Source: Porphyromonadaceae bacterium CG2_30_38_12 (lineage in GTDB: Bacteria > Bacteroidota > Bacteroidia > Bacteroidales > Paludibacteraceae). From it: a stretch of 39,322 bases of DNA. Below are positions 6,011-37,829 of this stretch, piece after piece. Under the pieces are notes generated by a model. The model did no database searches. It was not told where the DNA came from and saw only the letters and a list, made by a program, of their open reading frames with translations. The position numbers and the translations under genes are program-made. Positions within the stretch are counted from its first letter, which is position 1. Each line of letters begins with the position of its first letter. Where the stretch lies: assembly GCA_001873635.1 (NCBI GenBank), contig MNZK01000015.1, positions 1 to 39,322 of the forward strand, read 5' to 3'.

Positions 6011-6040
6011 TATTCGACTTCGGATAATAAGTCGGAATAG
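6011..6040 (-). promoter_or_regulatory. Inverted repeat overlapping the promoter -10 of the OB-fold gene
   Basis: TATTCGACTT at 6011-6020 faces AAGTCGGAATA at 6029-6039: ten paired bases with one bulged base and an eight-base loop. One arm contains the CGAC element of the ECF-type promoter, so it could be an operator, or a hairpin at the very 5' end of the transcript. Confidence 0.35.
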
Positions 6041-6056
6041 TATGCCGAACCTGACA
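6031..6056 (-). promoter_or_regulatory. ECF sigma-type promoter, site 1 (OB-fold / YceI / peroxiredoxin genes)
   Basis: On the minus strand, TGTCAGG (6056-6050), 15 bases, then CGAC (6034-6031). The -10 element is 76 bases before the ATG at 5954. The same two boxes with the same spacing recur at 28885-28910, 34744-34769, 36455-36480 and 37354-37379. Confidence 0.7.
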
Positions 6057-6078
6057 AAAGAATCTAAAAAAATCTTAT

Positions 6079-6792
6079 TTAATGACATCCACCATCTAAG
6101 CTACATGCCTGACCTTGAAAAGCTGTTTCGGTAAAGTTGGAATTTTTGTTTTTCAGCACACAGCCTTTCAGGATTTCCGTAAAGGACTCTACGCTACTCA
6201 AACCTTTGACAGCAATACTTTTATCGAATTGGAAATAAGGAACACCACTAACTCCAACTTTTTGCGCATTCGCGATATCATTTTCAACCAACACTTTATA
6301 CTTATCCTGACTAAAAAACTCTATGGGAGTACGATTCAGTCCGATCTTTTGGGCAATAAGGCTTAAATTTTCCACATCCCCAATATCTATTCCAGAGCTA
6401 AAATAAGCTTCGAAAAGCTCTTCCTCAGCCTGTTCAGCTTTACCGTGCTCCTGGGCATATTGTATCAATTGGTGAGCCTTGAAAGTATTAGCAACTAATG
6501 CTGTATCGAAATTGAAATGTATCCCAGCGGATGTAGCATAATTATTTAATCGTTTTTTCATGTCATCCAACTGTTGTACGGTCATACCACGGTATGTAAG
6601 CAAATGCTGATTAATGTTAGTAGTAGATTGTGACGGGCGTTCGGGATCTAACTGATAACTATGCAATACTATTTTAAAAAGCTTTTGTTCGTTTGCCGGT
6701 AAGGAACTTAATGCTTGCTCCAAATAATGCTTTCCAATATAGCAATACGGGCATGCTATATCAGCCCAAATGTCAATTAGTATTTTTTCCAT
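6079..6792 (-). CDS. DsbA-family oxidoreductase (FrnE-like)
   Basis: Thioredoxin-fold protein of 237 residues from the ATG at 6792; an upstream TTG at 6819 is less likely. DIWADIACPYCYIGKHYLEQAL places the active-site CPYC at residues 14-17, and VSGVPYFQFD holds the cis-proline. There is no signal peptide, as in FrnE-type members, which are cytoplasmic thiol oxidoreductases linked to oxidative stress. The C-terminus ends GQACSLDGGCH, a second Cys pair (CX5C). A C-terminal CX4C pair is known in Deinococcus FrnE, so this tail may be a second redox centre. The ECF-type promoter with N14 spacing (6842-6866) lies just upstream, inside the end of the preceding gene. Confidence 0.8.
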   Translation of the reverse strand: MEKILIDIWADIACPYCYIGKHYLEQALSSLPANEQKLFKIVLHSYQLDPERPSQSTTNINQHLLTYRGMTVQQLDDMKKRLNNYATSAGIHFNFDTALVANTFKAHQLIQYAQEHGKAEQAEEELFEAYFSSGIDIGDVENLSLIAQKIGLNRTPIEFFSQDKYKVLVENDIANAQKVGVSGVPYFQFDKSIAVKGLSSVESFTEILKGCVLKNKNSNFTETAFQGQACSLDGGCH

Positions 6793-6841
6793 GCTTTTTG
6801 TGTTTGGTAAATTTAACAATATGTTGCTATTTGAATCAATA

Positions 6842-6866
6842 GTCGGTCAATGAATGAAACCTGACA
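6842..6866 (-). promoter_or_regulatory. ECF sigma-type promoter, site 2 (DsbA-like gene), N14 spacing
   Basis: On the minus strand, TGTCAGG (6866-6860), 14 bases, then CGAC (6845-6842), ending 49 bases before the ATG at 6792. The -35 part lies in the last codons of the GT-C gene (stop at 6847). The spacing is one base shorter than in the other sites, so it is a weaker candidate. Confidence 0.5.
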
Positions 6867-9659: not shown

Positions 9660-9660
9660 T

Positions 9661-11002: not shown

Positions 11003-11006
11003 ATTA

Positions 11007-11900: not shown

Positions 11901-11908
11901 TCTGTAGT

Positions 11909-13288: not shown

Positions 13289-13291
13289 ATT

Positions 13292-15402: not shown

Positions 15403-15428
15403 ATATTATATTTCTTATTTTGTATTTC

Positions 15429-18212: not shown

Positions 18213-18270
18213 GGTCTTAATTATTTTTTTAGATTATGATTATGTGTAATATGCTTATTGTATTACGCAA

Positions 18271-20919: not shown

Positions 20920-20950
20920 AATTTTGTTTTTACTTGTTTGTTCAAAAAAA

Positions 20951-23066: not shown

Positions 23067-23068
23067 AT

Positions 23069-24601: not shown

Positions 24602-24606
24602 CTTAT

Positions 24607-25449: not shown

Positions 25450-25461
25450 ACTTTCTTATTT

Positions 25462-26076
25462 CTATTCTTGAATTAATTGCACTAACTCCTTGTATCTGAA
25501 AACATCTTCAACGGTATCAATATCGTTGAGTGGAATTAAGGTCTTGAAAGTTAGTTTTTCTTTATTCAGCACATCAATAGTTTGAGCAAGTGTTTTTTCA
25601 GTACTCCAGGCTATGTTTTCAAAAAGTAAAGGTTGATTTCTGGTCAACCCCAATAAATAATATCCACCATCGTTAGCCGGACCAATAACGCAATCGCTAT
25701 TTTTTAATTTTTCAAAAGCATCAGCAATTAAATCTGAAGTTATTTCATAATTATCGCTACCAATAATGACTACCCTCGAAAATCCAGCATCAAAAGCCAC
25801 ATTGAATGCCCGTTTCATCCGAGTGCCTAAATCAGATCCTTGTTGCTCATAAACCTCAATATTGCCACTCACCTTGAATGAAAACGCTGATGCATCAGCC
25901 ACAAAAATCAACTTTTCGACATTCAATTTTTCAATTGTCTGAAAGGTATAGTGAAGCAATGATTTGTAAATAATTAATGTTTTTGCATTCCCAATTTCTT
26001 TAGCGATACGGGTTTTGACTTTGCCTAATTCCGGATTTCGCACAAAAATCAGTAGTGCATCGTTTGCATTATTCAT
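25462..26076 (-). CDS. Arsenosugar biosynthesis-type glycosyltransferase (rSAM/selenodomain-associated transferase 1)
   Basis: A 204-residue GT-A fold protein. ALLIFVRNPELGKVKTRIAKEIG is the typical start of the DUF2064 / transferase 1 family, SRVVIIGSDNYEIT the metal-binding region, and GPANDGGYYLLGL the family signature (GP-x-x-DGGYYLLG). Members occur next to ArsS-type radical SAM genes in many bacteria and are proposed to act in arsenosugar formation; the donor and acceptor are not established. Its start overlaps the end of the rhodanese gene by 8 bases, which links both to one transcript. The related transferase 2 family is not seen in this window. Confidence 0.85.
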   Translation of the reverse strand: MNNANDALLIFVRNPELGKVKTRIAKEIGNAKTLIIYKSLLHYTFQTIEKLNVEKLIFVADASAFSFKVSGNIEVYEQQGSDLGTRMKRAFNVAFDAGFSRVVIIGSDNYEITSDLIADAFEKLKNSDCVIGPANDGGYYLLGLTRNQPLLFENIAWSTEKTLAQTIDVLNKEKLTFKTLIPLNDIDTVEDVFRYKELVQLIQE

Positions 26077-26575
26077 ACACCTTATCGCCTTTTTTCAACC
26101 ATTTACCCCACTCTTTATCGTAGGCATGTACTTTAGAAGTTTTATCAGTTTTGTTATCTATAACATCATACCCTAAATTCACCCATTCAAAAATTCCACC
26201 ATACAGGTTCAATACATTTTTAAATCCTGCTTTACGAAGTTTTTCGCCCACTCGTTCGCTGCGGTAACCTACTGAGCAATATACTACTACGAGTTCATTT
26301 TTCCCCAAATCAGTCACTTTGTCAACGCTAAAAGTGTCATAATCTACAAAACGTGCACCAGCTATATGACTGGTATTATATTCTTTTATTTTACGCGTGT
26401 CGAGTATGGTAATAGTCTCTGATGCATCTAATTTTGCTTTTAAATCCTGCGGACTAATTTGCTCTACCGTGTTTTTATACATTCCTTTGAGCATAGTATG
26501 ATATAATTTTGATGATTGAGAAAAACTCAGTTGAATAAATAAAAAAGATACAAGTATGATGAGTTGTTTTTTCAT
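26069..26575 (-). CDS. Exported rhodanese-domain protein
   Basis: A 168-residue protein with a signal peptide (MKKQLIILVSFLFIQLSFSQ). One rhodanese domain spans about residues 36-150: ILDTRKIKEYNTSHIAGARFVDYD, then the active-site loop with catalytic C100 in VVVYCSVGYRSERV, and GFKNVLNLYGGIFEWVNLG. Rhodaneses move sulfur or handle oxidised thiols; a periplasmic form could reduce or thiolate an arsenic compound (oxo-to-thio exchange), which is speculation. It overlaps the transferase gene by 8 bases and follows the terminator at 26602-26641, so its promoter is unclear. Confidence 0.82.
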   Translation of the reverse strand: MKKQLIILVSFLFIQLSFSQSSKLYHTMLKGMYKNTVEQISPQDLKAKLDASETITILDTRKIKEYNTSHIAGARFVDYDTFSVDKVTDLGKNELVVVYCSVGYRSERVGEKLRKAGFKNVLNLYGGIFEWVNLGYDVIDNKTDKTSKVHAYDKEWGKWLKKGDKVYE

Positions 26576-26601
26576 GGCCGTAATACTTATTTAAGAAAAT
26601 T

Positions 26602-26641
26602 AAAAACTATCTGCAAGTTTTTAGTTTACAGATAGTTTTTT
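26602..26641 (-). terminator. Intrinsic terminator after the T9SS protein gene
   Basis: A perfect 12-base inverted repeat, AAAAACTATCTG at 26602-26613 and CAGATAGTTTTT at 26629-26640, with A and T runs on both sides. It lies 11 bases after the stop codon at 26652 and should end minus-strand transcripts, possibly both directions. Confidence 0.75.
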
Positions 26642-26651
26642 GTAATAATTT

Positions 26652-28847
26652 TTATTGAACTAATAATTTCTGAGTTCCAATTAATTGACCATCTAATTCT
26701 ACACGGATAAAGTAGAGTGCTGAATTTGATAAATTACTGCCGACAGAAAAACTATTGTTTCCATTCGTAGCGTGAACAGTTTTTTCAAATACAACTCTGG
26801 CGTTGCTATCGTACAAAGTAGTTTTAACATTACCTGCTTGCTCAACATTTAAATGAACCTGTATTGTATTGTTATTGTTATCTGCATACACTAAAAGCTT
26901 TGAATTATTCGCACTAAAGTTTGTCAAACTTGTTGATAGACCTGAAAAATCATATTCACCCTCGGCGGCAAAAACGTAAGGCGAAGTGCCACCTACTATA
27001 TTGGGTATGCCGTCATTGTCTGAATCGTTACCTACTTCACCGGATTGCATAGATTCAGAAAGAATCATTTTGTCGATAATACTTGCGCCTATACGGCTTA
27101 AAATTATGGGTGCATCAGTCTGATTACCAACAAGCTTAGCCTCTCTGAGTGCCCCTACCAACACAGCCATAACGTTAGGATTATAAGCGGCTATATTGTT
27201 TCCAAATTCAGTTTTGAATGCATGAATCGATGGTACATAAAAATTAGCTATCATATAGTTATAAGCGTTGTTTGCAGCTGTTAGGTAAAGTGTGTTGTTG
27301 GTATAGCTATAAGCAGCATACAAACCCCGAACTAAAGACGCTTGTGCTTCGAGTGTTTTAGGGCTGTTTGAAGCACCAACACCTAATGTAAAACTATTAA
27401 AAAATCCACCGTTTACATCTCCAAAATTAGCAAGAATAAAGTCAGCTTGTTCAGCAATAACAACATCAGCTGTTGCCTTTAATGGCGTTGCTGCAAATTC
27501 AGTAGCAAAATCAGCTAAAATAACAAGCGCGTAACCAGCTGTTTGAGCTGAAATAACATCACCTTGAACAACGTTTCCGGAGGATAAGTTGGCTGCATCT
27601 ACCAATGTCTTGTTAGCTGAATTATAGTGCATAGCCATGATATTTTTAAATAATACCATACTTGTACCATTCATCAAATCAAAGGGTCCAGCTGTTCCTG
27701 TTTGCGACATGGATGCCGGGAATGGGCTACCATCAAACACATGTCTGTATGCATAATGTTGTGCATCTACAATATTGGGGTCAGCCATATTCTTAAAACC
27801 GGTAGTTCCCCAAAGAAACGAAAGCTGATCGAACAAAATACTTCTTGCATCCACCAATGTCATCGTATTTAACATGGGTGGCAACATAGTTCCCATATCA
27901 GTTTCGGTTACTTCAATCAAATGAGGAAAATATTTTATTCCATTTGCAGGGTCGTATGTGGCTGGATCGACAGAACCTAAGGTATTACCATCATAAGCCA
28001 TGCGGTTTATCAAAAACATAGTTTTGTTTATCCCCACTCCTGTAAGCATTTGACCCATAAAACCATCTAAGTTATTGCCACCATAAAATACATTATTGGT
28101 AGGCTCTTTGTTAAAATTTGGTGAACCAATTGAATCGGGACTAACTACACCATCAGCATCAATGGTGTTATCCAAGGAATCATGAAAGGCGCCCAGCATG
28201 TCTTGTGCCCACAAATACTGTTTCATTAGGCTTTGCCCCATAGCGGCTGGATTTAACTTTTTGTCCATCAAACTTCTGTCCCAACGTGCAGAAGAAAAAT
28301 CCATTTGAAAATTTGCATCAACCGCTTGAGGTAAATTCATATTGCCAGAAACAAAATCGGCAAATTGAGGGAAAGCACCCGCGGGAGCTGCTTGATTAGC
28401 GTGCATACTGAACATACCCATCATCATCATCAACATATCATCTTCTTTTCGTCCATTTTGCATTCCGCCCGTAAACGTACCATCAAATGATGGTCCTTGC
28501 ATGCTTGCCATTTGTTCAATCATAGGCGACCACATGAGATGCAAGCCCATACCCGATTGAGCTCCAAGAGCTTGCAACAAATAGCGGGAATACTCGTAAT
28601 TCTCTATCCCAAATGTATATGACATAGAGTCGGGAGAATTAGGCACTAAAGGATCAAGATTGTCCAAATTGTAGCCCAATGCTTCGGCAAAGGGTTCGCC
28701 ACTTTCATTCAACTCGTTAGCCAATAACATTTGATGAGCCGTGTTAAAAGTAGTCGTGTTGGTTTTTGATAACTGTGCAAAAGTGAAATTAGCTATACTC
28801 AAGAGAGCAGCCAAGAGCAGTAAATTAATTGTTTTCATTGTTTTCAA
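26652..28847 (-). CDS. Large Met-rich secreted protein with type IX (T9SS) sorting domain
   Basis: A 731-residue protein with a signal peptide (MKTMKTINLLLLAALLSIANFTFAQ) and a C-terminal sorting domain of about 80 residues (LLVYADNNNNTIQVHLNVEQ, TTLYDSNARVVFEKTV, ALYFIRVELDGQLIGTQKLLVQ), so it should be exported across the outer membrane. The middle has helix-rich segments (KTLEAQASLVRGLYAAYSY, LTAANNAYNYMIANFY, NPNVMAVLVGALREAKLVG) like (alpha/alpha)-toroid enzymes, and an EF-hand-like NDSDNDGIPN. A Met-rich stretch (KEDDMLMMMMGMFSMHAN) lies near residues 133-150. I recognise no enzyme family. The gene is next to arsS, preceded by an ECF-type promoter at 28885-28910 and followed by a strong terminator, so it is a single-gene unit. 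Confidence 0.65.
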   Translation of the reverse strand: MKTMKTINLLLLAALLSIANFTFAQLSKTNTTTFNTAHQMLLANELNESGEPFAEALGYNLDNLDPLVPNSPDSMSYTFGIENYEYSRYLLQALGAQSGMGLHLMWSPMIEQMASMQGPSFDGTFTGGMQNGRKEDDMLMMMMGMFSMHANQAAPAGAFPQFADFVSGNMNLPQAVDANFQMDFSSARWDRSLMDKKLNPAAMGQSLMKQYLWAQDMLGAFHDSLDNTIDADGVVSPDSIGSPNFNKEPTNNVFYGGNNLDGFMGQMLTGVGINKTMFLINRMAYDGNTLGSVDPATYDPANGIKYFPHLIEVTETDMGTMLPPMLNTMTLVDARSILFDQLSFLWGTTGFKNMADPNIVDAQHYAYRHVFDGSPFPASMSQTGTAGPFDLMNGTSMVLFKNIMAMHYNSANKTLVDAANLSSGNVVQGDVISAQTAGYALVILADFATEFAATPLKATADVVIAEQADFILANFGDVNGGFFNSFTLGVGASNSPKTLEAQASLVRGLYAAYSYTNNTLYLTAANNAYNYMIANFYVPSIHAFKTEFGNNIAAYNPNVMAVLVGALREAKLVGNQTDAPIILSRIGASIIDKMILSESMQSGEVGNDSDNDGIPNIVGGTSPYVFAAEGEYDFSGLSTSLTNFSANNSKLLVYADNNNNTIQVHLNVEQAGNVKTTLYDSNARVVFEKTVHATNGNNSFSVGSNLSNSALYFIRVELDGQLIGTQKLLVQ

Positions 28848-28884
28848 TGTTTTAAATTAAAAGAATTATTTCTTTGCACAATCT

Positions 28885-28910
28885 GTCGAATGTATATTCC
28901 AATCCTGACA
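28885..28910 (-). promoter_or_regulatory. ECF sigma-type promoter, site 3 (T9SS protein gene)
   Basis: On the minus strand, TGTCAGG (28910-28904), 15 bases, then CGAC (28888-28885), ending 37 bases before the ATG at 28847. It lies entirely in the gap after arsS. Confidence 0.75.
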
Positions 28911-28950: not shown

Positions 28951-29997
28951 TCAAATAGTTTCACCGCCACAGCTCGAACCTGCACCTGCAGTGCATCCGT
29001 AGCAATGCTGCGACACCTTTATTTCTCGTTGCAACAAATAATCTAAATCGAAATTAGACACATGATTGTGTGAGCTATCGTCCAATTTCATGTTGAGCAT
29101 TTGATTAAAATCGCAGTCGAACAAATAACCATCCCAGCCAACTGAGATCATATTTCGGCACATCACATTTTCAGCGGCAAAAGGATTAAACGCATTGACC
29201 AACTCTTCCATATACGCTACAAAATTGTCAGTGTTCACCAAATGATTCAAAAATCGGCTTACAGGCAAATTGGTGATAGCGAAAAGTTTGTTAAACTCAA
29301 TCCCATGGTCGTTGCGTAAATGTTCTTTAAATTCCATTTCGAGGAAAGCTTGCGATGGAGGCAGAAAAGCACCTGCGGGATTATAGACCAAATCAAGCTG
29401 CAAACTACTATCGGGCATGCCATATCCACGTGCGTTGAGCAACTTAAGTGCCTGAATAGAAGTTTCAAAGACTCCCTTTCCACGCACTTTATCCGTACGC
29501 GATGCATCGTAAAAGGGCAATGAGCTCACTACTTCCACCCCATTTTCGGCAAAAAAATCGGGCAAGTCGTTGAAGCGTTCATCTTCGAGAATAATAGTCA
29601 GGTTGCAGCGTACAATTATTCGGCGTCCCATTTCGTGACAAGCTTTCACAAACCACCGAAAATGTGGGTTTAATTCAGGTGCGCCTCCTGTTAAATCGAC
29701 AATTGGAATGTTAAATTTCTTGATAGCATCCAAGCATTGTTGCATCGTTTCCTTGGTCATTATTTCGGGACGGTCTGGACCTGCGTTTACGTGACAATGA
29801 CGACATGTTTGGTTACACATTTTGCCCACATTTACCTGAAATACATCCAAGCCAATAGGCGTTAATGCCTTTACATTAATACTAGCAAGTGACTCTTTGA
29901 AAGGTATTATATCGGGCGACAATGTGGGAGCATTGTCCAGCACTGCCAGCTGCCTTTTTGCCTCTGCTTCCTCTTTTTCTTTGTTGTATAGTATCAT
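28951..29997 (-). CDS. arsS: Arsenosugar biosynthesis radical SAM protein ArsS
   Basis: Radical SAM enzyme reported to join a 5'-deoxyadenosyl group to a dimethylated arsenical, the committed step to arsenosugars. From the ATG at 29997 (348 residues) the motif C61xxxC65xxC68 (GKMCNQTCRHCHVNAG) binds the [4Fe-4S] cluster; VDLTGGAPELNPHFR is the GGE-like SAM-binding part. The C-terminus is a Cys-rich domain ending HCYGCTAGAGSSCGGETI; relatives may carry selenocysteine in this domain, here Cys only. An upstream TTG at 30030 would add 11 residues and overlap the peroxidase-like gene by 20 bases; I prefer the ATG 13 bases after that gene. Context with ArsM supports the role. Confidence 0.9.
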   Translation of the reverse strand: MILYNKEKEEAEAKRQLAVLDNAPTLSPDIIPFKESLASINVKALTPIGLDVFQVNVGKMCNQTCRHCHVNAGPDRPEIMTKETMQQCLDAIKKFNIPIVDLTGGAPELNPHFRWFVKACHEMGRRIIVRCNLTIILEDERFNDLPDFFAENGVEVVSSLPFYDASRTDKVRGKGVFETSIQALKLLNARGYGMPDSSLQLDLVYNPAGAFLPPSQAFLEMEFKEHLRNDHGIEFNKLFAITNLPVSRFLNHLVNTDNFVAYMEELVNAFNPFAAENVMCRNMISVGWDGYLFDCDFNQMLNMKLDDSSHNHVSNFDLDYLLQREIKVSQHCYGCTAGAGSSCGGETI

Positions 29998-30010
29998 ATT
30001 ATGAAACTTT

Positions 30011-30346
30011 TTAAAAACTAATTTCGTCAATTTTATTCATCATTTGTACACTGTGAGCCAGGGTAGCGCCACCTTTAATAGCAGCACCCACATGAACGGC
30101 TTCCATCATTTGCTCTTCGGAATATCCATTTTTTACGCAGTTGGTGGTGTAGGCGTCAATACAGTATGGACATTGTACAACATGAGCTACCGCTAATGCT
30201 ATCAAATCTTTTTCTTTTTCGGTTAATGCTCCCTCTTTGAACACTTCACCATACCAGGCAAAAAATTTTTCGGCCATGGGTTGTTGGTATTTTCCTATAC
30301 TACCAAACTTTTTCAAATCTTCGGGTTTGTAATATTGTTTTGACAT
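30011..30346 (-). CDS. Arsenosugar-associated peroxidase-like protein (AhpD/CMD fold)
   Basis: A 111-residue carboxymuconolactone decarboxylase-like protein with AhpD-type active site: VVQCPYCIDAYTTNC gives C59xxC62 and Tyr66 in place of the usual His. KFFAWYGEVFKEGALTEKEKDLIALAVAHVVQ precedes it and HVGAAIKGGATLAHSVQMM closes the domain, as in the family always noted near ArsS-type radical SAM proteins. It may handle thiol or peroxide chemistry on the arsenical, but no activity has been shown to my knowledge. It lies between the DUF547 gene (4 bases) and arsS (13 bases). Confidence 0.87.
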   Translation of the reverse strand: MSKQYYKPEDLKKFGSIGKYQQPMAEKFFAWYGEVFKEGALTEKEKDLIALAVAHVVQCPYCIDAYTTNCVKNGYSEEQMMEAVHVGAAIKGGATLAHSVQMMNKIDEISF

Positions 30347-30350: not shown

Positions 30351-31061
30351 TTATTCGTTTAAAGTCCAATTATATGTTATGTTAGTTATTTTTGCATTTG
30401 AAGCAATTTTTACAGGCGAAAACTGATTTAAGTAAGCTATCAACTTCATGTTTTTAGTGAAATCTGAATTAAACCAAGTAAATATTTCAGAAATCTCAAT
30501 TTTTGAAACACTGATTTTATTCCTACTGGTATCGCTCAAAAATAACTTGGCTGATTCGTCTAATTGTTTATCAAGCGTAGCCGGAAAATAGGCTTTATTT
30601 CTCAATATCGGGCAGGACTTGGCAGCACACACAATAGCAAAATGGATGCGTGCATCTTGGTATTGCGGACGCAAAATTTTGTTTTCAATGTCGTTGAGCG
30701 TATAGATTTTATTAGCCAACTTGATAAACTTTTTATCCCAAGGCGATCCAATATCTTTGATGCTTTTTAATGGATAATTATCAACTATAAGCTTCACAGT
30801 AAAGGCATTGTAAGCATTTATCCAATAAGCTTTCGATTCGTTCTTAGTCCAACTTTTTGTAGGTTGTGCACTTTCAAGCACTTTGAGGTAGCCCTCCAAT
30901 TCAGCACTATTTTTCTTTATTTCCTTGTAATTTACTTGTCCAACTGCATTGACGTGATTTTTCAGGAATGCATCCCATTTTTCGTGCGATACAGAACTGT
31001 TTTGAGCTACAAGTACTTGTGTCAGAAAGAACAAAAGTGTTACTAATTTTAATGGTCTCAT
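30351..31061 (-). CDS. Exported DUF547 protein, arsenosugar-cluster type
   Basis: A 236-residue protein with a signal peptide (about residues 1-20, LVTLLFFLTQVLVAQ). The DUF547 core has SKAYWINAYNAFTVKLIVDNYPLKSIKDIG, IENKILRPQYQDARIHFAIVCAAKSCPILRNKAY and LSDTSRNKISVSKI. The conserved CAAKSCP cysteines, Asn and His suggest a papain-like fold, but DUF547 has no proven reaction. These proteins recur beside ArsM/ArsS genes. It is periplasmic, unlike ArsM and ArsS, so it may handle an exported product. Spacing: 40 bases after arsM, 4 before the peroxidase-like gene. Confidence 0.8.
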   Translation of the reverse strand: MRPLKLVTLLFFLTQVLVAQNSSVSHEKWDAFLKNHVNAVGQVNYKEIKKNSAELEGYLKVLESAQPTKSWTKNESKAYWINAYNAFTVKLIVDNYPLKSIKDIGSPWDKKFIKLANKIYTLNDIENKILRPQYQDARIHFAIVCAAKSCPILRNKAYFPATLDKQLDESAKLFLSDTSRNKISVSKIEISEIFTWFNSDFTKNMKLIAYLNQFSPVKIASNAKITNITYNWTLNE

Positions 31062-31101: not shown

Positions 31102-32133
31102 TTAGCATCCGCAGGCAGATGCCGAGTTATTATTGTCGGAGGGTGGCGTGCAATCAAACAATCCGTAGTGAACTGACTTTTCCCCCTGAAGTGTAAAATG
31201 TTTGGCAAATCGGGTTTTCGAAATCATATCAGCCGTATTACCACAAACCAACATGGGTTTTCCGGTTACAAATTTGTGATGGTCGTCTAATTCAAAATAA
31301 TGTGGATAATTGGGTATTGTTCCTTTATAAACAGCAACCTGTCCAAAATCTTCGCAGCGGTCTTCCAAATCTAATTTGAATGCTCGCACTGTTAAAGACA
31401 TAAATTCGATAAGTCCCACTTCTGCTTCTATTTCAGGATTGTTGATTGTAATGGGTGCTTGCTCCGTTACACGATAATCTGCGCAACCAACTTCGGTCAT
31501 TAACCTTCTGAAATCTTCTACATACATGGCTCCACCCAAACATTCGCCTTGCATCACCACATCGTTGGCAATGTGAGCTGGTATGCGCTTGTTGGCAAAA
31601 ACATCTGAAAAATAAAGCTCACCACCTGGCTTGAGTACTCTGAAAATTTCTTGAAATACCGATTTCTTATCAGGAGATAAATTAATTACGCAATTGGAAA
31701 TCACTATGTCTATCGAATTATCTGCAATATCCATAGCTTTTAAATCTTCGATATAGCCCAATTTGAATTGCACATTGGATTTGGAATAGCCAAACTTAGC
31801 CATTTGTTCACTTTCGTATTTTTGGGCTACTTCTAATTGATTTTCAGTCATATCTATGCCTATCGACAAGCCGTTTTCACCTACTAACTTGGACAAAATA
31901 TATACATCTCTGCCCGAACCGCAGCCTAAATCAAGTACCGTCCGACCATCTAAGTCGCTTGGAATAGGAGAACCACAACCATAAAACCGATCCTTTATTT
32001 CAGCTGCAATTTCACTCATTGCTAATTTTACATCGGGCGACATTTTGTCGGGACTGCAATAACAAGCGTTTGTTTTGAGATCAGCGCTATGCTGCAATAT
32101 CTCACCGTAATATCTTTTTACGTTTTCTTTCAT
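31102..32133 (-). CDS. arsM: Arsenite methyltransferase ArsM
   Basis: SAM-dependent methylation of As(III) to mono- and dimethyl forms in the cytoplasm. 343 residues. VLDLGCGSGRDVYIL (66-80) is SAM motif I. Arsenic-binding Cys candidates are C24/C26 (TNACYCSP), C53 (RFYGCGSP), C148 (SNCVINLSPDK) and C198 (MQGECLGGAMY); the spacing of 50 between C148 and C198 equals that of C174 and C224 in the algal CmArsM. The C-terminus ends in SASACGC. Its neighbours DUF547, peroxidase-like and ArsS lie directly downstream with small gaps. The upstream GH113-like gene is 44 bases away. The order fits: methylation here, adenosylation by ArsS. Confidence 0.93.
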   Translation of the reverse strand: MKENVKRYYGEILQHSADLKTNACYCSPDKMSPDVKLAMSEIAAEIKDRFYGCGSPIPSDLDGRTVLDLGCGSGRDVYILSKLVGENGLSIGIDMTENQLEVAQKYESEQMAKFGYSKSNVQFKLGYIEDLKAMDIADNSIDIVISNCVINLSPDKKSVFQEIFRVLKPGGELYFSDVFANKRIPAHIANDVVMQGECLGGAMYVEDFRRLMTEVGCADYRVTEQAPITINNPEIEAEVGLIEFMSLTVRAFKLDLEDRCEDFGQVAVYKGTIPNYPHYFELDDHHKFVTGKPMLVCGNTADMISKTRFAKHFTLQGEKSVHYGLFDCTPPSDNNNSASACGC

Positions 32134-32177: not shown

Positions 32178-33230
32178 CTATTTGTTTTCGTTTTCAAAAT
32201 ATCTCTTTATAATTTCCTCTGCTTTTTTATTCTGAGGCGTGTAATCGGTATTGGTTGCACCGCCTGCATTTTGGTGTTTCGGATACCATTTCCACAAAAA
32301 AGCTCCCTTAAACCATTGCTTATCTGCAAATACTTCAAAAAATGCAGCTAATGCATTGGCTTGAGCCTGCTCGTTGACCACCCTCGAACTCGGATTCCAA
32401 GGTTCGTGAGCGCACTGATTGACACTTTTATATCCTATTTCAGTAAACACAATGTCCTTGTTTTTCTGCTTTCTGAAAGCATCAATGGCATTAAATTCAT
32501 TCGTCCAGGCTTTTACAAGTATTTCTTTGTCAGGTGTTTCCATATCGGACAATGGAAAATAGGCATCAATACCAATAAAATCAAGCTTATCCCAAAAGGA
32601 AACTTGCTGATAGTCGTCCCAGTTAGCGGCATAGAGTAATTTCCCCTTGTAAAATGTTCGTATCGTATCAATGAGCGACACCCAATAATCAGGGCGTTTT
32701 TCAACGGCTATTTTCAATTCAGTGCCTACACAAAACATTTCGATACCCAATGAATCAGCTAAATGAGCAAAGTGTAAAATGTAGTTACTGTAATTTTGTT
32801 CCCATATCTTCCATTCCTCATCTGCGCTCAAGTCAAAGGCTGCCGTATAGCTATTCTGAAACCAAAGTTGAGGTTTGAGCATCGTTTTAATTCCTTTTTC
32901 ACGTGCCAACAGAGTCGTTGCAATTATACCAGCATCTGTTTCACCCCACCACTGATAGGTACTATTGTAAGTTACTTGCGTGCTGTGCTGCACCCCAAAT
33001 GCAAAAGGCATCTGTGCTATATAATTGCAGTGAACAGCTTTTAAGGCATTGATATCCGTACTATCCACCACATCGCGACCAGCCACAAAACTCAATCCAT
33101 TCAATTCAAAATGTGAAGGTTCAAAAGGCTTATCGCGTGTTGTCAGTTCTTTATTGCAAGCATACATCAATCCAAAAATCAGGCTAATGAACGCCAATAA
33201 TGTAAATTGTTTTATTTTATTGAATACCAT
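32178..33230 (-). CDS. GH113-like glycoside hydrolase lipoprotein (paralogue b)
   Basis: A 350-residue TIM-barrel glycosidase-like protein with a lipobox (LMYAC, Cys25), so it is probably anchored in the outer membrane or periplasm. Catalytic candidates match the GH113/clan A pattern: the acid/base Glu in EMFCVGTELKIAV and the nucleophile Glu in DIVFTEIGYKSVNQ. Other signatures are QWWGETDAGI, KPQLWF and DFIGIDAYFPLSD. GH113 includes beta-mannanases; the true substrate is open. The start overlaps the neighbouring paralogue by 19 bases, and the two proteins are closely similar, so the pair arose by tandem duplication. Confidence 0.78.
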   Translation of the reverse strand: MVFNKIKQFTLLAFISLIFGLMYACNKELTTRDKPFEPSHFELNGLSFVAGRDVVDSTDINALKAVHCNYIAQMPFAFGVQHSTQVTYNSTYQWWGETDAGIIATTLLAREKGIKTMLKPQLWFQNSYTAAFDLSADEEWKIWEQNYSNYILHFAHLADSLGIEMFCVGTELKIAVEKRPDYWVSLIDTIRTFYKGKLLYAANWDDYQQVSFWDKLDFIGIDAYFPLSDMETPDKEILVKAWTNEFNAIDAFRKQKNKDIVFTEIGYKSVNQCAHEPWNPSSRVVNEQAQANALAAFFEVFADKQWFKGAFLWKWYPKHQNAGGATNTDYTPQNKKAEEIIKRYFENENK

Positions 33231-34213
33231 TTTTTAATCAATTTTTCTACGGGTTTATGCTGGGGCGTGTAATCCGAATTTGGATTATCCTTGTACATTT
33301 CGTCCTGAGGGTACCATTTCCATATAAAGCCACCAGCCACAAAATCTTGTTGCCAAACCGACTCGTAAAATGCCTGATAAGCATTGGTTTGAGCATTAAA
33401 ATTTATTTTATCAGTCGTTGATATTCGTTCATTTTCCCATTGTTTATAGGCTGCAAAGTCTATACTTTTGTACCCATATTCAGTAAATATCACTTTCTTA
33501 TTATATTTTTTACTAATTGATTTTATGGCTATTATCTTCGTAGCCCAACGCTTAGTTAGCACTTCTACCGTAGGTGTTTTCTGTCCCGACAACGGAAAAT
33601 AGGCATCGATACCAATATAATCAAGTGCATCCCAAAAAGATACGTTTGAAAATTCCTCAAAATTTGCTGCATAGCATAGTTCTCCACTGTAAACACGACG
33701 CACTTGGGCAATAAGTTTTCTGAAATACGCTGGATGACGAGCCGAATAAGTCTGCAATTCAGTACCTATACATAGTAATTTCACATTGTTTTTTTCTGCA
33801 ATAGCTGCCAAAAACAGTATGTAATTGCTATAATTTTGCTCAAAATCAATCTGTTTTGTGCCCGATAAATCAAACTCACCTGCCCAAAAATAATTCATCA
33901 ACCAACAATGTGGTTTTAAACAGACCTTCAATCCATTTTTTTGCGCCCATTTGATTTGTTCTATAAGTCCCTCTTGCCTATCGCCCCACCAGTTTTTTGG
34001 CGTATTAAATGTTACCGTAGCACTGTTTTTATAGATAAATGCAAATGGGCAGATGGCTATCCAGTTGGCATTTATACGTTTGATAGCACCCATTCCATCA
34101 AGTCTTGTTTTGTATTTTGGCGACACCAAGCAAACTCCATTTATCTTTGTCTGTGCACGAAGCCCGAAGAACATAATGAATATAAATAAGGTCAGTAGGC
34201 CTGTTAATTTCAT
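33212..34213 (-). CDS. GH113-like glycoside hydrolase, exported (paralogue a)
   Basis: A 333-residue protein with a Sec signal peptide (KLTGLLTLFIFIMFFGLRAQ) but no lipobox, unlike the paralogue downstream. Catalytic candidates: Glu in LLCIGTELQTYSAR and Glu in KVIFTEYGYKSIDF. Also NWWGDRQEG, KPHCWLMNYFWAGEFDLSG, DYIGIDAYFPLSG and GFIWKWYPQDEMYKDNPNSDYTPQ, all shared with paralogue b. Likely a secreted beta-mannanase-like enzyme. It follows the GNAT gene by 10 bases, so the GNAT-gene promoter probably drives it and the arsenosugar core downstream. Confidence 0.78.
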   Translation of the reverse strand: MKLTGLLTLFIFIMFFGLRAQTKINGVCLVSPKYKTRLDGMGAIKRINANWIAICPFAFIYKNSATVTFNTPKNWWGDRQEGLIEQIKWAQKNGLKVCLKPHCWLMNYFWAGEFDLSGTKQIDFEQNYSNYILFLAAIAEKNNVKLLCIGTELQTYSARHPAYFRKLIAQVRRVYSGELCYAANFEEFSNVSFWDALDYIGIDAYFPLSGQKTPTVEVLTKRWATKIIAIKSISKKYNKKVIFTEYGYKSIDFAAYKQWENERISTTDKINFNAQTNAYQAFYESVWQQDFVAGGFIWKWYPQDEMYKDNPNSDYTPQHKPVEKLIKKWYSIK

Positions 34214-34223: not shown

Positions 34224-34724
34224 TTAAACTTTTTTGCCTAAAATTCGCAGACTATAATTTTCTTCATCCATTCTTGCAATGTCAGGCAACAGACCCCAAT
34301 GTTCAAATCCAAAACGTTCAAATAGCTTTATGCTGGGCTCATTATGACTAAAAATAAAAGCTAATAAGGTTTCTATCTTTAAATTTTTGCACTGCTCAAT
34401 GCAATATTTTAATATAGACTTACCAAACCCACGCCCCCTAAATTGTTCATCTATGTAGATACTAATTTCAACCGTGGCATTGTAGGCTGGTCGTCCGTAA
34501 AACGATTGAAAGCTTACCCAGCCAACGGTTTCTCCTGAGTTGTTTTCAATCATCCACAGGGGTCGTTGTGAAGCATTATGTGCCTCAAACCAATTTGCTT
34601 TACTTTCCACAGTTACCTTCGACGTATCTGCTGTAACCATACGTGAAGCAACTGTAGAATTATATATCGCTACAATTTTGGACAAATCACTGCGATGCGC
34701 GTCTTTATAAATTAATGTTTCCAT
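34224..34724 (-). CDS. GNAT acetyltransferase, phosphinothricin acetyltransferase (PAT/ArsN)-like
   Basis: A 166-residue GNAT protein. The N-terminus IYKDAHRSDLSKIVAIYNSTV resembles PAT/Bar proteins; VGWVSFQSFYGRPAYNATVEISIYIDEQFRGRGFGKSIL has the acetyl-CoA motif RGRGFGKS, and FSHNEPSIKLFERFGFEHWGLLPDIARMD matches the PAT C-terminal half. PAT paralogues named ArsN1 acetylate arsinothricin and lie in arsenic operons, which gives a context-based hypothesis; amino-acid or other N-acetylation is equally possible. It is the first gene after the ECF-type promoter at 34744-34769, and the arsenosugar genes follow in the same direction. Confidence 0.8.
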   Translation of the reverse strand: METLIYKDAHRSDLSKIVAIYNSTVASRMVTADTSKVTVESKANWFEAHNASQRPLWMIENNSGETVGWVSFQSFYGRPAYNATVEISIYIDEQFRGRGFGKSILKYCIEQCKNLKIETLLAFIFSHNEPSIKLFERFGFEHWGLLPDIARMDEENYSLRILGKKV

Positions 34725-34743
34725 CTATTCTATTTTTCTATTA

Positions 34744-34769
34744 GACGCTTCAATTTCGTTATCCTGACA
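34744..34769 (-). promoter_or_regulatory. ECF sigma-type promoter, site 4 (GNAT, GH113 pair, arsM, arsS)
   Basis: On the minus strand, TGTCAGG (34769-34763), 15 bases, then CGTC (34747-34744), ending 19 bases before the ATG at 34724. It is the only intergenic promoter candidate before the run of seven closely spaced genes that ends with arsS. Confidence 0.75.
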
Positions 34770-34776
34770 GTTGTAG

Positions 34777-35598
34777 CTATTTTTTTAGAGGAAAAATAAA
34801 TTGCCCCAAAAATCTCTTCGGAAAACTCTTCTCATCATCAAAACCGAGCTCTACATCCCTGCCCGAAGTGGGAATGTAATTGGTGCTGAACAAATAATCC
34901 CACACACTCAAAGTCAGTCCAAAATTTACACCATATTTTTTTGGTAATTCCTTGGCATGGTGCCATATATGCATTTGAGGATTATTCAAAATGTATTTCA
35001 ACCAACCCAAGTGAACATTTATATTCGCATGATTAAAATGCCCTATTGCAATAGTGATGACATACATGATGGTGAAATCGTTGACACTCATGCCCAGCAG
35101 TGCCAACGGAATATATTGAAGCAGGCTATAGGCAATCCCTTCCACCCAATGGTAGCGCAGATGTGCCGCAAAGCCCATTTCCTTGACGGAATGATGCACT
35201 TTATGAAATTGCCACAACCAATCGACTCGATGCAACAAACGGTGAATGTTGAACTGAACAAAATCGCGAAGGAGGAAGAAAATTAGAATCTGCAACCACG
35301 ATGGTAAATGATTGATATGCAACAAGTCTAATTGATAAATACCTGCATTATTCAATCCCAACCAAAGTAAATGATGCGTGATGTTTGCCAAAAAATTGAG
35401 CAACAACACGGGGAAAATAAACAGATTAAAAAACATATAAAAGCCATCGAGCCAAAAATCTTTACGAAATATGGATTGACTTTTTCGCCAAGGGAAAAAT
35501 ATTTCCAATGCCCAAAAGAAAATAGAAAGCCCCACAAACCAAAGAAAAAAAGGGCTTGTGAAGGTTTCTTTTATATTTTTGAATATCGATTCGAACAT
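34777..35598 (-). CDS. Sterol desaturase/fatty acid hydroxylase superfamily protein
   Basis: A 273-residue membrane protein with four or so hydrophobic segments. His boxes for a di-iron site: H119xxxH123 (NIHRLLHR), H132xxH135H136 (FHKVHHS), H-rich IGHFNHANINVH and MHIWHHA near residues 215-220. The set is complete, so it may hydroxylate or desaturate a lipid or alkyl chain. The substrate is unknown. It is 21 bases after the second peroxidase-like gene, and the ECF site 4 lies just past its stop, so it belongs with NrtS and the peroxidase-like gene. Confidence 0.82.
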   Translation of the reverse strand: MFESIFKNIKETFTSPFFLWFVGLSIFFWALEIFFPWRKSQSIFRKDFWLDGFYMFFNLFIFPVLLLNFLANITHHLLWLGLNNAGIYQLDLLHINHLPSWLQILIFFLLRDFVQFNIHRLLHRVDWLWQFHKVHHSVKEMGFAAHLRYHWVEGIAYSLLQYIPLALLGMSVNDFTIMYVITIAIGHFNHANINVHLGWLKYILNNPQMHIWHHAKELPKKYGVNFGLTLSVWDYLFSTNYIPTSGRDVELGFDDEKSFPKRFLGQFIFPLKK

Positions 35599-35619: not shown

Positions 35620-36180
35620 TTAATAATTATATCCAGCACCTTTGTCGGTTTCCAATTCCACACCCAACGATAGTACAAGTCGATTTACAAAGTTGAAATA
35701 AGCCACCACCAATACGGCATCCAAAATTCCCTGTTCCGCAATTCCAACTTCCGATAATTCTTTTGTAAAATCAGTTTTTTCGTGTAAGTGAGGATACAAT
35801 GTAAGATGTTTTGCAAACCTACACAAAGCATTTTCCTTTTCGGAAAGACCTTTGGCTTCAATATTTGTCAACAGCAGTTGAATTTTCGAATTATCTTTCC
35901 AGTATTTATTTAATGCTTCCGAATGGTGCGTTCTACAATAATTGCAGCCATTATTTACCGACACAACCACCGCTATCATTTCACGCTCAGCACGCGACAA
36001 CTCTGAATGATTAAACATTATTTCAATGTAAAGGTTCATGTGTGCCACAATGCTTTCGGGATGCAAACTCTGAATGGTATGCACATCGGCTAATTTTCCA
36101 CGATTTTTTATTAAATCATCGTATATTGCTCTCAGTCTGCCAGTTGACTCCTCGTAATCTATCACTTTAATTCTCGACAT
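35620..36180 (-). CDS. Peroxidase-related AhpD/CMD-fold protein
   Basis: A 186-residue protein, longer than the arsenosugar-type one. HSELSRAEREMIAVVVSVNNGCNYCRTHHSEAL gives C79xxC82xxxH86, the full AhpD CxxCxxxH triad, which supports alkylhydroperoxidase-like activity. RFAKHLTLYPHL and LDAVLVVAYFNFVNRLVLSLGVELE are also typical. No signal peptide, so cytoplasmic. It lies 25 bases after nrtS and 21 before the desaturase gene, and the ECF site 5 is the probable promoter. Confidence 0.85.
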   Translation of the reverse strand: MSRIKVIDYEESTGRLRAIYDDLIKNRGKLADVHTIQSLHPESIVAHMNLYIEIMFNHSELSRAEREMIAVVVSVNNGCNYCRTHHSEALNKYWKDNSKIQLLLTNIEAKGLSEKENALCRFAKHLTLYPHLHEKTDFTKELSEVGIAEQGILDAVLVVAYFNFVNRLVLSLGVELETDKGAGYNY

Positions 36181-36205: not shown

Positions 36206-36430
36206 TTATTTCGTAAAATTATTTTTTGCTTGTACAGCCGAAAAAGTCGACACCAAATAGGGTACGCAATAGGTGAGCAATAACCTTGAAATAGATATAT
36301 TTTCGAAATCTAATGTCGAAATGGCTGTCCATTGATTGATTAAATTGAGCAAGGTTCCTACCACAACCGCCACTTTAATGGCTGTGTATGCTATTTTCTT
36401 TCGGAACGCTATTTCAATAAAATTTCTCAT
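36206..36430 (-). CDS. nrtS: Small membrane protein NrtS (nitrate/nitrite transporter)
   Basis: A 74-residue protein with two hydrophobic segments. The pattern FIEIAFRKKIAYTAIKVAVVVGTLLNLINQW, then SRLLLTYCVPYLVSTFSAVQA, matches the NrtS family (R..A..VALVVGT.L..INQ, LTY.VPY.VST.S). NrtS is linked to nitrate and nitrite transport. Here it shares its upstream region with a divergent MarR gene and has an ECF-type promoter 24 bases before the ATG. Confidence 0.82.
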   Translation of the reverse strand: MRNFIEIAFRKKIAYTAIKVAVVVGTLLNLINQWTAISTLDFENISISRLLLTYCVPYLVSTFSAVQAKNNFTK

Positions 36431-36454
36431 TGTCTATTACCATTTAAACATTGG

Positions 36455-36480
36455 TCGTAAGAAATAAACAAACCTGACAC
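36455..36480 (-). promoter_or_regulatory. ECF sigma-type promoter, site 5 (nrtS, peroxidase-like gene, desaturase)
   Basis: On the minus strand, TGTCAGG (36480-36474), 15 bases, then CGAC (36458-36455), ending 24 bases before the ATG at 36430. Confidence 0.75.
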
Positions 36481-36498
36481 TAAAATTAAGAATTAATG

Positions 36499-36560
36499 CA
36501 AAGATATAAAATAGTTTCAAATGAAACCAATAATTAGTTCGACAAAATGTATTATTTTTG
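36499..36560. promoter_or_regulatory. Divergent nrtS/marR promoter region with palindromic operator candidate
   Basis: The plus strand has TATTTTTG (36553-36560) as -7 box 15 bases before the marR ATG, and the minus strand has TATCTTTG (36506-36499) toward nrtS. Both fit TAnnTTTG, but neither has a clean -33 TTTG at usual distance. Between them lies GTTTCA-AA-TGAAAC (36514-36527), a perfect 6-2-6 palindrome where a MarR dimer could bind and block both promoters. Confidence 0.5.
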
Positions 36561-36575
36561 TAAAAAATAAAAATT

Positions 36576-37013
36576 ATGGAATATAGTTTTTCAACGTCAT
36601 TCGGAAATCTATCGAGTAAATTAGTTTTGGATATAAGAAAGGTATTTGTAAGTTTTCTTTCGCAAGCACAATTAGAAATTACGACCGACGAATGGTTTGT
36701 GCTGTCAAAACTGTTTCATACCAAAGCGAGCACTCAAAATGAAATTGCAAACGAATTGGGATTGAGCAAAGTAAAAATCACGCGTTTAATCGCAGTACTC
36801 GAAAATAAAAATTTTATAAGCAGAGAGACGGGTATGGGCGATAAACGATTTAAAAATGTAACGCTTACAGAGGAAGGAAAAGCAATGTATCGTATTGTGG
36901 AACCAATAGCAAAAGAGACTTTGAAAAAAATATTCGATGGATTTAGCGAAGCAGAAAAGCAGTTGCAAATTGAATTTTACAATAGAATGCTATCAAATTT
37001 AAGACAAACTTAA
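36576..37013 (+). CDS. MarR-family transcriptional regulator
   Basis: This 145-residue winged-helix protein is the only intact plus-strand gene. LEITTDEWFVLSKLFHTKASTQNEIANELGLSKVKITRLIAVLENKNFISRETGMGDKRFKNVTLTEEGK contains the recognition helix (LGLSKVKITRLIAVLE) and the wing (GDKRFKNVTLTEEG) typical of MarR. Target genes are probably itself and nrtS, given the shared intergenic palindrome. The ligand is unknown; no Cys is present in the chain, so direct thiol oxidation is unlikely. Its stop overlaps the anti-sigma stop by 4 bases in convergent orientation. Confidence 0.88.
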   Translation: MEYSFSTSFGNLSSKLVLDIRKVFVSFLSQAQLEITTDEWFVLSKLFHTKASTQNEIANELGLSKVKITRLIAVLENKNFISRETGMGDKRFKNVTLTEEGKAMYRIVEPIAKETLKKIFDGFSEAEKQLQIEFYNRMLSNLRQT

Positions 37014-37273
37014 TCTCTGTGCGATAATTCTTCTTTAATTTTCAATTTCAACTTATCCAAATCGGCAGTATGTGTGTGGGCATTGGCTAAGTGCTGAATA
37101 CCATTTTCGAGAAACTCACTTTGTTTTTCGTAACGGGCACATTTGTCGCACATCATGGTGTGCATGCGCAGTTGGAGTCTTTCTGTGAACGATAGTTTTA
37201 TATGGAATTTTTTTTCTATTAATTCCGTTGCTTTCAAACATGAAAGCATAAGGATATGCATGATATGTTTCAT
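37010..37273 (-). CDS. Zinc-binding anti-sigma factor (ZAS, HX3CX2C)
   Basis: An 87-residue cytoplasmic protein from the ATG at 37273, directly after the ECF sigma gene (4 bases). Residues 38-45 read HTMMCDKC, the HX3CX2C zinc-binding motif of ZAS anti-sigma factors such as RsrA and ChrR; a further Cys12 lies in LSCLKATELIEKK. ZAS proteins hold the sigma factor until thiol oxidation, metal or another signal releases it. The segment SCLKATELIEKKFHIKLSFTERLQLRMHTMMCDKC is a pattern I recall from Bacteroidota pairs. A non-ATG start at 37330 would overlap the sigma gene and is less likely. Its own ECF-type promoter (37354-37379) lies inside the sigma gene. Confidence 0.82.
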   Translation of the reverse strand: MKHIMHILMLSCLKATELIEKKFHIKLSFTERLQLRMHTMMCDKCARYEKQSEFLENGIQHLANAHTHTADLDKLKLKIKEELSHRD

Positions 37274-37277
37274 TTTT

Positions 37278-37829
37278 CTAATTGTTAAACCAATTATTTT
37301 CAATACAGTTTCGAAGTTGCAATTTGGCACGATGTACTATTTGCCAAAAGTTAGTCGTACTAATACCTAATTCCTGACAGATATCCTCACCACTTTGTTC
37401 GGTCAAATACTTTAATTTTACACAGGCGCTCCATTTATCGGGTAATGCATCGAGGCATTTTTTCAAAGTATCATTAAACTCTTCATCATCTAAGAGATTT
37501 GACTCCTCTTCGTGCCATTCTTTTGGAGCTTTTTCATCATGCCAACCTTCATTATCATCGAAGAAAGTCGATATCGTATCGTTACCAAGCACAATGGGGC
37601 TTTTTGCTTTTTTTCGGTAAAAGTCAATGATTTTATGATTCAGAATGGAGAAAAGCCAAGTTTTTGGTGAACTATCGCCCTGAAAAGAATGGATTCTCTC
37701 GGCAGCAACCAGAAATGTATCCTGAACCAAATCTTCGGCTATATGCACCGAGGATGTTTTGAAGTATGCCCAGTTGTAAAGCTCCGAAGTGAATTCGTTG
37801 ACCCAGTGCGTAATGTTTTTGTTGCTCAT
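37278..37829 (-). CDS. ECF-type RNA polymerase sigma factor
   Basis: A 183-residue sigma factor with regions 2 and 4 only. HIAEDLVQDTFLVAAERIHSFQGDSSPKTWLFSILNHKIIDFYRKKAK (about 31-77) is region 2 with the -10-recognising helix, and LDALPDKWSACVKLKYLTEQSGEDICQELGISTTNFWQIVHRAKLQLRNCIE (about 127-178) is region 4 with its HTH for the -35 element. An acidic linker (DDNEGWHDEKAPKEWHEEESNLLDDEEF) joins them. The downstream ZAS protein should be its partner. No ECF-type box precedes the sigma gene itself, but five exact sites and one variant occur elsewhere in the window. I infer these are its targets. Confidence 0.92.
   Translation of the reverse strand: MSNKNITHWVNEFTSELYNWAYFKTSSVHIAEDLVQDTFLVAAERIHSFQGDSSPKTWLFSILNHKIIDFYRKKAKSPIVLGNDTISTFFDDNEGWHDEKAPKEWHEEESNLLDDEEFNDTLKKCLDALPDKWSACVKLKYLTEQSGEDICQELGISTTNFWQIVHRAKLQLRNCIENNWFNN
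37354..37379 (-). promoter_or_regulatory. ECF sigma-type promoter, site 6 (anti-sigma gene), inside the sigma gene
   Basis: On the minus strand, TGTCAGG (37379-37373), 15 bases, then CGAC (37357-37354), ending 80 bases before the anti-sigma ATG at 37273. It overlaps codons of the sigma region-4 HTH (CQELGISTTNF), so it could be coincidental, yet the match and spacing are exact. It would raise anti-sigma level when the sigma factor is free, a negative feedback. Confidence 0.55.

Follow-up and report, generated by a model that had tools for sequence, protein, structure and literature searches.

What would it mean for a sigma factor gene to carry, within its own coding sequence, a copy of the promoter that its product is predicted to read? 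The question is raised by a 39,322-nucleotide stretch of contig MNZK01000015.1 of Porphyromonadaceae bacterium CG2_30_38_12 (the whole of it hereafter called the window), which encodes an extracytoplasmic function (ECF) sigma factor and an adjoining zinc-type anti-sigma factor. A preliminary description of the window, made from its letters alone, proposed that TGTCAGG-N15-CGWC (W, A or T) is an ECF promoter shared by redox, nitrate-transport and arsenosugar genes, and that these genes form the regulon of the nearby sigma factor. Five exact copies had been taken as promoters standing before genes. Four of them do stand before putative operons, whereas the fifth, at 37354-37379, is intragenic and lies inside the sigma open reading frame (ORF) 37278-37829, a location that is a more important observation than the shared motif itself. 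The reading developed here, with a probability of roughly 0.87, is that the sigma factor and its zinc anti-sigma factor run a small local redox regulon and that the inhibitor is made from the embedded promoter.

The promoter motif and its copy within the sigma gene

All five exact copies of the motif, together with a sixth that has a 14-base spacer, were recovered on the minus strand by pattern scan (Table 1), and in 100 dinucleotide shuffles of the window neither five nor six matches were ever reached. The coordinates previously given stand except at one site, which lies at 36454-36479 rather than 36455-36480. Two plus-strand copies of TGTCAGG (32528-32534 and 34280-34286) also exist and, as had been described, lack CGWC at the spacing of the motif. 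Distances of 19 to 80 bases to a minus-strand ATG had been claimed, and measurement from the end of CGWC to the start codon agrees: the four exact copies at 6031-6056, 28885-28910, 34744-34769 and 36454-36479 precede putative operons by 76, 46, 19 and 23 nt, the N14 copy at 6842-6866 lies 49 nt before a DsbA-like gene, and 80 nt separate the embedded copy from the anti-sigma ATG at 37273. The -10 element is CGAC at four of the five N15 sites and CGTC at the other, and a purine occupies the inferred +1 at all six sites. The N14 copy is the weakest of the six and is uncertain.

The assembly (2.63 Mb in 118 contigs, 82.6% complete) holds five exact N15 matches, every one of them in the window. 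The scan for TGTCAGG-N14-16-CGWC that the preliminary description had put forward as a check returned seven exact matches, six in the window. With one mismatch there were 30 further N15 matches; the reversed pattern, with up to one mismatch, gives 29, so that this is background. Because the exact N15 copies all lie on one contig and one-mismatch matches occur at background level, the motif set of this genome is small, exact and local.

The claimed pairing of an ECF sigma factor with a zinc-type anti-sigma partner is borne out by family scores over cut-off for both proteins. The sigma protein contains Sigma70_r2 (57.0 bits) and Sigma70_r4_2 (30.3 bits), both over cut-off, and no region 3, as is the rule for ECF sigma factors, and it scores 91.9 against a cut-off of 42.9 with sigma70-ECF. 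Its nearest NCBIfam model is TIGR02943 (Sig70_famx1), of which, at 140.1 bits against a cut-off of 162.2, it is not a member by score. The anti-sigma factor reaches 54.4 bits with NF052368 (cut-off 50) in a scan that used an upstream extension of the same ORF.

Within Sigma70_r4_2 (residues 122-172), the embedded copy spans the codons for I-C-Q-E-L-G-I-S-T-T-N. The -35 element reads TGT-CAG-G(AA) and spells Cys151-Gln152-Glu153, while the -10 element reads (A)CG-AC(T) and spells Thr158-Thr159. The inferred +1, at 37344, falls on the G of the codon for Trp162, which places it 71 nt ahead of the anti-sigma ATG. By profile, this part of the protein aligns with what we take to be the helix-turn-helix in the solved structures of SigW and SigH.

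Codon use at the embedded motif in sigma homologues

Homologues of the sigma factor were gathered by protein search of 295 genomes of the same class (59 with a match), 395 of the phylum and 229 from the class to which a Methylotenera genome belongs (28 with a match), and at least 80 further loci came from a named genome collection. Removal of near-identical proteins reduced 158 genes to 147, and two of 50 later ones were dropped as duplicates, leaving 195. The strict motif TGTMAGG-N15-CGWC (M, A or C) is present at the same codons in 84 of these 195 homologues. When synonymous codons were resampled by each locus's own usage with the amino acids fixed, 2000 draws gave a mean of 2.85 (standard deviation 1.62) and a maximum of 9. 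The bias is seen at each codon taken singly: the -10 codon is NCG in 138 of 163 genes (29.7 expected, z 22.7), the -35 codon ends in G (AAG/CAG-type) in 134 of 170 (57.4 expected, z 13.5) and the Cys codon ends in T (TGT-type) in 162 of 192 (99.8 expected, z 9.7). Twenty more distant ECF genes, treated identically as controls, contained the motif in no case and had no bias of this kind. In a scan of all columns in the 50 homologues of the first search, the motif codons ranked first for G-ending codons, with z values of 10.2 and 8.2 (next column 3.5); the T-ending Cys codon stood out less (5.9, next column 5.1).

The carriers, as labelled, include members of Bacteroidota, Ignavibacteriae, Acidobacteriota, Desulfobacterales and Methylotenera, several being metagenome bins in which a stray contig is possible. 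Two environmental carriers, Flavobacterium frigoris PS1 (L101) and Flammeovirga sp. SJP92 (L095), are in culture. In the sample from the Methylotenera class the embedded motif is found in 11 of 30 homologues, although the genomes are mostly G+C-rich. An ORF was found downstream of the embedded motif in 64 of the 84 loci, and 59 of those 64 encode H-x3-C-x2-C. Two contigs of a single metagenome bin (L088 and L091) each carry a sigma factor of the family, with 67 and 57% identity to that of the window; one has the embedded motif intact and the other is without it.

External sites around the sigma genes of relatives

Comparison of upstream regions in related genomes, also suggested in the preliminary description, covered 1.86 Mb around the 195 sigma loci and gave 127 external TGTNAGG-N15-CGWC sites, of which the window contributes four, whereas the reversed pattern occurred 3 times. 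Near these genes other spacers were rare, with 14 bases at 7 sites and 16 bases at 3, compared with the 127 of 15. When the last four bases of the -35 element were left free (TGTNNNN-N15-CGWC) around sigma genes outside the TGTAATG group considered below, TGTAAGG was found 94 times and TGTCAGG 32 times, with the next heptamer at 4. Four of the 127 sites have no ORF; among the remaining 123, 107 sit 7-54 nt before an ORF start. By placement, 54 of the 127 closely follow the anti-sigma gene, 19 stand a short way ahead of a sigma gene, 19 are divergent from it and 35 are elsewhere. In the Pedobacter/Mucilaginibacter group (L083, L085, L119, L126, L137, L147, L149, L160, L162 and others) sites are found upstream of the sigma gene and after the anti-sigma gene, and are often divergent.

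With the 19 sites upstream of sigma genes left out, 101 of 104 downstream proteins were family-scanned. The families include redoxin/AhpC, YceI, methionine sulfoxide reductases (Msr), DoxX, DUF2282, thioredoxins, DUF417, DUF1223, DUF6789 and CMD, and share a redox theme. Among the proteins scanned after divergent and other sites, the most frequent Pfam family is DUF1223 (11 of 51).

The consensus of the external sites is TGTMAGGWTT..CGWCTAA, with a purine at +35 (A in 64%, G in 30%). In 95% of embedded copies that position is G, the final base of a conserved Trp codon. For sigmaE of N. meningitidis (NMB2144), which is paired with the zinc-type anti-sigma factor MseR, the putative consensus is GTMAGBWTT, a spacer of 12-13 and CGTCTAAH, with transcription starting 6 nt past the consensus as mapped for gonococcal msrA/msrB (PMC2893595). 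In the notation used here that promoter is TGTMAGG-N15/16-CGTC, and the purine of the external sites falls at its start position. Since both the external consensus and the place of the purine match this published promoter, the window sigma factor appears, from sequence, to work with a promoter of the Neisseria sigmaE kind. The likeness extends to the adjoining small anti-sigma factor, in which C-x25-H-x3-C-x2-C falls within the C-x23-26-H-x3-C-x2-C of the MseR type. The Neisseria regulon is likewise redox-related and includes msrA/msrB (PMC2893595); among the relatives' sites, PMSR was found twice and SelR once in 50 proteins, and SelR twice in 51, and no Msr gene was seen at any site of the window. 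A similar system is RpoE2/HrsE of Haemophilus influenzae, a hypochlorite-responsive ECF sigma factor with a 67-aa cytoplasmic anti-sigma factor related to MseR and with msrAB as target (PMC7907618). The proposal that the motif marks the regulon of the adjacent sigma factor is thus supported, as the sites cluster at sigma homologues, stand a short distance before ORFs and share the consensus of sigmaE.

A predicted feedback loop through the embedded promoter

No site was seen upstream of the sigma gene in the window. A copy at -300 to -20 of the sigma gene is present in none of the 84 genes with the embedded motif and in 19 of the 111 without it (Fisher p = 1e-5), these being mostly from relatives of Pedobacter, Mucilaginibacter and Chitinophaga. 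Statistical exclusivity of the two arrangements was considered and dropped, as the upstream state changes only 4 times on a FastTree tree and an independent-pairs test was not significant (p = 1); the two arrangements follow a pattern, but their exclusion of each other is not proven. Some gammaproteobacterial relatives have their nearest site on the upstream strand ~0.9-1.2 kb before the sigma gene, as would be expected, by analogy, for an operon promoter of the Neisseria type. In Neisseria, unlike the window, the promoter stands ahead of an operon of several genes, the sigma gene among them, which gives both positive and negative feedback (PMC2893595). The region upstream of H. influenzae rpoE2 is hardly activated by RpoE2 (PMC7907618), which would fit an unseen internal promoter.

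The proposed mechanism is as follows. In the unstressed cell the sigma factor would be held by its small soluble zinc-type anti-sigma factor (37010-37273). An oxidant (hypochlorite or another cause of thiol oxidation, if Neisseria and Haemophilus are a guide) would free the sigma factor (37278-37829), for which TGTCAGG-N15-CGWC would be the promoter, and transcription of the local regulon would follow, comprising thiol, peroxide and sulfur proteins, NrtS and an arsenosugar-type operon. The embedded copy, set in the codons of region 4, the part predicted to read -35 elements, points at the anti-sigma gene, so that the freed sigma factor would raise its inhibitor without raising itself, in a self-terminating loop.

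A precedent is provided by Corynebacterium glutamicum, where PrshA, a SigH-dependent promoter inside sigH, drives rshA alone from a start 62/66 nt before rshA, as demonstrated by Northern analysis, reporter and primer extension (PMC3489674). As in the window, the sigma gene itself contains the promoter, which is directed towards the anti-sigma gene; the principle of an internal anti-sigma promoter is therefore already known. Unlike the window sigma factor, however, the actinobacterial SigH is of another ECF group and reads another promoter type (TGGAAGA, TGTTAAA), and a position in region 4 codons, conservation or codon constraint are not reported in the available portions of that account (PMC3489674). 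An ECF-related promoter embedded in coding sequence also occurs at Caulobacter sigV, but there the host gene is cabp, upstream of sigV, and the promoter drives sigV (PMC13171946). The position in region 4 codons, the breadth of occurrence and the codon constraint look new. No earlier report of the embedded promoter was found in the open-access literature searched, where papers matching TGTAAGG, sigma and promoter were, among the matches listed, unrelated by title.

Weighing of the alternatives

The alternative that survives best, although improbable, is that the sites are real ECF promoters while the main role of the embedded copy is transcription of genes past the anti-sigma gene, or block read-through, and not feedback. 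It draws on two loci (L016 and L078) in which AhpD and ArsS genes come next after the anti-sigma position with no other site found between. Many loci, however, have a separate site after the anti-sigma gene (54 of the 127 external sites, and 36454 in the window), so that the embedded copy would serve the anti-sigma gene alone.

Much less probable again is binding of the motif by a different regulator, such as a MarR protein or another ECF sigma factor. Several regulators are present in such islands, but MarR was found in few loci, and the sites of the relatives cluster around the sigma gene. The dialects of embedded and neighbouring sites also agree: the fourth -35 base, given as embedded/external per locus, is A/A in 25 loci, C/C in 4, A/C in 1 and C/A in 0. 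Furthermore, in the Neisseria relative with the same promoter, transcription of the sigma operon and of msrA/msrB is sigma-dependent (PMC2893595). That the embedded copy is a coding coincidence, in which the conserved region 4 peptide C-[KQ]-E-L-x-I-[ST]-x-[ST]-N fixes part of the motif and happens to spell TGTMAGG...CGWC, is scarcely credible given that 84 of 195 homologues keep it against 2.85 expected with amino acids fixed (never above 9 in 2000 draws), that its biased codons are the top-ranked columns of the gene and that control ECF genes are without it.

Several observations nevertheless weigh against an embedded promoter that feeds back within a sigma regulon. The homologues are related and their counts non-independent, for which the column scan serves as a control, and 111 of the 195 homologues are without the strict embedded motif. 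Nineteen of those 111 spell TGTAATG-N15-CGWC at the embedded place (L118, L138, L140, L144, L154, L155, L159, L161, L163, L167, L187, L193, L196, L268, L270, L271, L273, L274 and L276), with CGWC kept in 19 of 19. A heptamer tally around the loci found no external TGTAATG copy near these sigma genes, and the variant is perhaps, from its sequence, a variant promoter serving the anti-sigma gene only. In relatives the region 2 codons for L-V-Q-x-T-F are biased too, with z values of 5.1 (50 genes) and 7.6 (195 genes) for Thr ACT and 6.0 for Gln CAG. An explanation of this bias as an artefact of the peptide search pattern was withdrawn, as that Thr column also ranks second for T in the pattern-free 50-gene scan. 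Finally, 58 sigma-bearing relatives have no genome-wide excess of TGTCAGG-N14-16-CGWC (165 against 201 reversed), and 13 other genomes have none of TGTMAGG-N15-CGWC (69 against 78).

The lack of excess in relatives' genomes, together with one-mismatch matches at background in the window's own, gives no support to a large regulon. The claim of a regulon thus stands as regards a shared ECF promoter, but the regulon looks small and local because relatives are without genome-wide excess of the motif.

Genes downstream of the window sites and the arsenosugar link

The features of the window are collected in Table 1. The putative operon at 22053-28847 encodes a 731-aa secreted protein with a weak type IX secretion system (T9SS) tail, a rhodanese-like protein (NF045521), a TIGR04282 glycosyltransferase (197.6 bits, cut-off 134), an MIP channel, a GMC oxidoreductase and a glyoxalase-fold protein; that at 1974-5954 encodes OB-fold (tRNA_anti-like), YceI, redoxin-like thiol, cysteine dioxygenase-fold and pyridoxal phosphate (PLP) decarboxylase proteins. 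An ORF at 995-2029 has a TseH-like domain (PF25218) and a DUF6695 C-terminal domain. The block at 8181-21769, with glycosyltransferase, NapH-like ferredoxin, glycogen debranching and purine phosphorylase genes, is devoid of the motif.

Table 1. Features of the window, with coordinates, strand and basis of assignment
Feature	Position	Strand	Remarks
Putative operon	1974..5954	-	Extent inferred from spacing; family scans
Putative promoter site	6031..6056	-	Exact N15; inferred +1 at 6021
DsbA-like thioredoxin-fold oxidoreductase	6079..6792	-	PF01323
Possible promoter site, 14-base spacer	6842..6866	-	N14 rare near relatives' sigma genes
Putative operon	22053..28847	-	Extent inferred from spacing; genes by family scans
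Putative promoter site	28885..28910	-	Exact N15; inferred +1 at 28875
ArsS, radical SAM protein	28951..30030	-	TIGR04167 438.6 bits, cut-off 300
Arsenosugar biosynthesis-associated peroxidase-like (AhpD-like) protein	30011..30346	-	TIGR04169 174.8 bits, cut-off 120
DUF547 protein	30351..31061	-	PF04784
ArsM-like methyltransferase	31102..32133	-	Below every ArsM cut-off: PRK11873 188.7 vs 263, AsSugarArsM (NF038099) 110.5 vs 400
Two GH113-like proteins	32178..34213	-	32178-33230 by PF22612; 33212-34213 by resemblance only
GNAT acetyltransferase	34224..34724	-	Best match ArsN1 family A, below cut-off (106.6 vs 170)
Putative promoter site	34744..34769	-	Exact N15; inferred +1 at 34734
Fatty acid hydroxylase-family protein	34777..35598	-	PF04116
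Peroxidase-related AhpD/CMD protein	35620..36180	-	TIGR01926 144.4 bits, cut-off 81.8
NrtS-type nitrate/nitrite transporter, 74 aa	36206..36430	-	NF038050 39.3 bits, cut-off 25
Putative promoter site	36454..36479	-	Exact N15; inferred +1 at 36444
MarR-family regulator	36576..37013	+	Convergent with anti-sigma gene
Anti-sigma factor, 87 aa	37010..37273	-	Zinc-type C-x25-H-x3-C-x2-C; start overlaps sigma stop
Putative intragenic promoter TGTCAGG-N15-CGAC	37354..37379	-	Inside sigma gene; codons C151-Q152-E153 and T158-T159
ECF sigma factor, 183 aa	37278..37829	-	Sigma70_r2 residues 11-75, Sigma70_r4_2 residues 122-172

Of the proposed link between redox, nitrate-transport and arsenosugar genes, NrtS, ArsS and the arsenosugar-associated AhpD-like protein hold by curated score, while the arsenosugar part is patchy in relatives. 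In the gene set itself the ArsS, AhpD-like and glycosyltransferase families are over cut-off and an ArsM of the arsenosugar type is below (NF038099, 110.5 against 400). As the ArsM-like and ArsN-like proteins fall below their cut-offs, 'arsenosugar' rests on family names and the pathway name is not secure.

The sigma gene adjoins AhpD-ArsS, often with TIGR04282, at five loci (L016, L078, L098, L099 and L109), and ArsS is near the sigma gene at three more (L207, L212 and L231); at L109 a site directly precedes the TIGR04169 gene. Among the 295 genomes, 59 have the sigma factor, 47 have ArsS and 17 have both, a moderate association (Fisher p = 0.005). Of the 47 ArsS loci, 30 were used to look for a site within ~1.5 kb upstream of ArsS, the other 17, among them the window's own, being left out; a site was present in 3 of 13 sigma-bearing genomes, two of the three being the embedded copy itself, and in 0 of 17 genomes without the sigma factor. 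With sites at so few ArsS loci, universal control of arsenosugar genes is not supported, and the link is recurrent but patchy. If true, it would place arsenosugar-type genes under redox control in several lineages.

Implications for the sigma factor family

Because promoter prediction and ECF classification examine the regions ahead of genes, they would miss an embedded element. If the proposed loop is true, a widespread redox sigma system has an overlooked wiring in which the anti-sigma factor is induced and the sigma factor is not, many sigma factors that have yet to be studied, in Bacteroidota and elsewhere, gain a promoter consensus, and synonymous substitutions within the sigma gene would affect regulation. 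A broader proposition, towards which we lean slightly, is that across several phyla the codons at the start of the sigma factor's helix-turn-helix are held as its own promoter. The need for feedback would then fix the codons, and even the residues (Cys, Lys/Gln and the small residue before Ser/Thr), of the domain that reads the promoter, and with a change of dialect the specificity and the embedded DNA would change together. In this way the family may lend itself to clean tests of selection where protein and promoter codes overlap.

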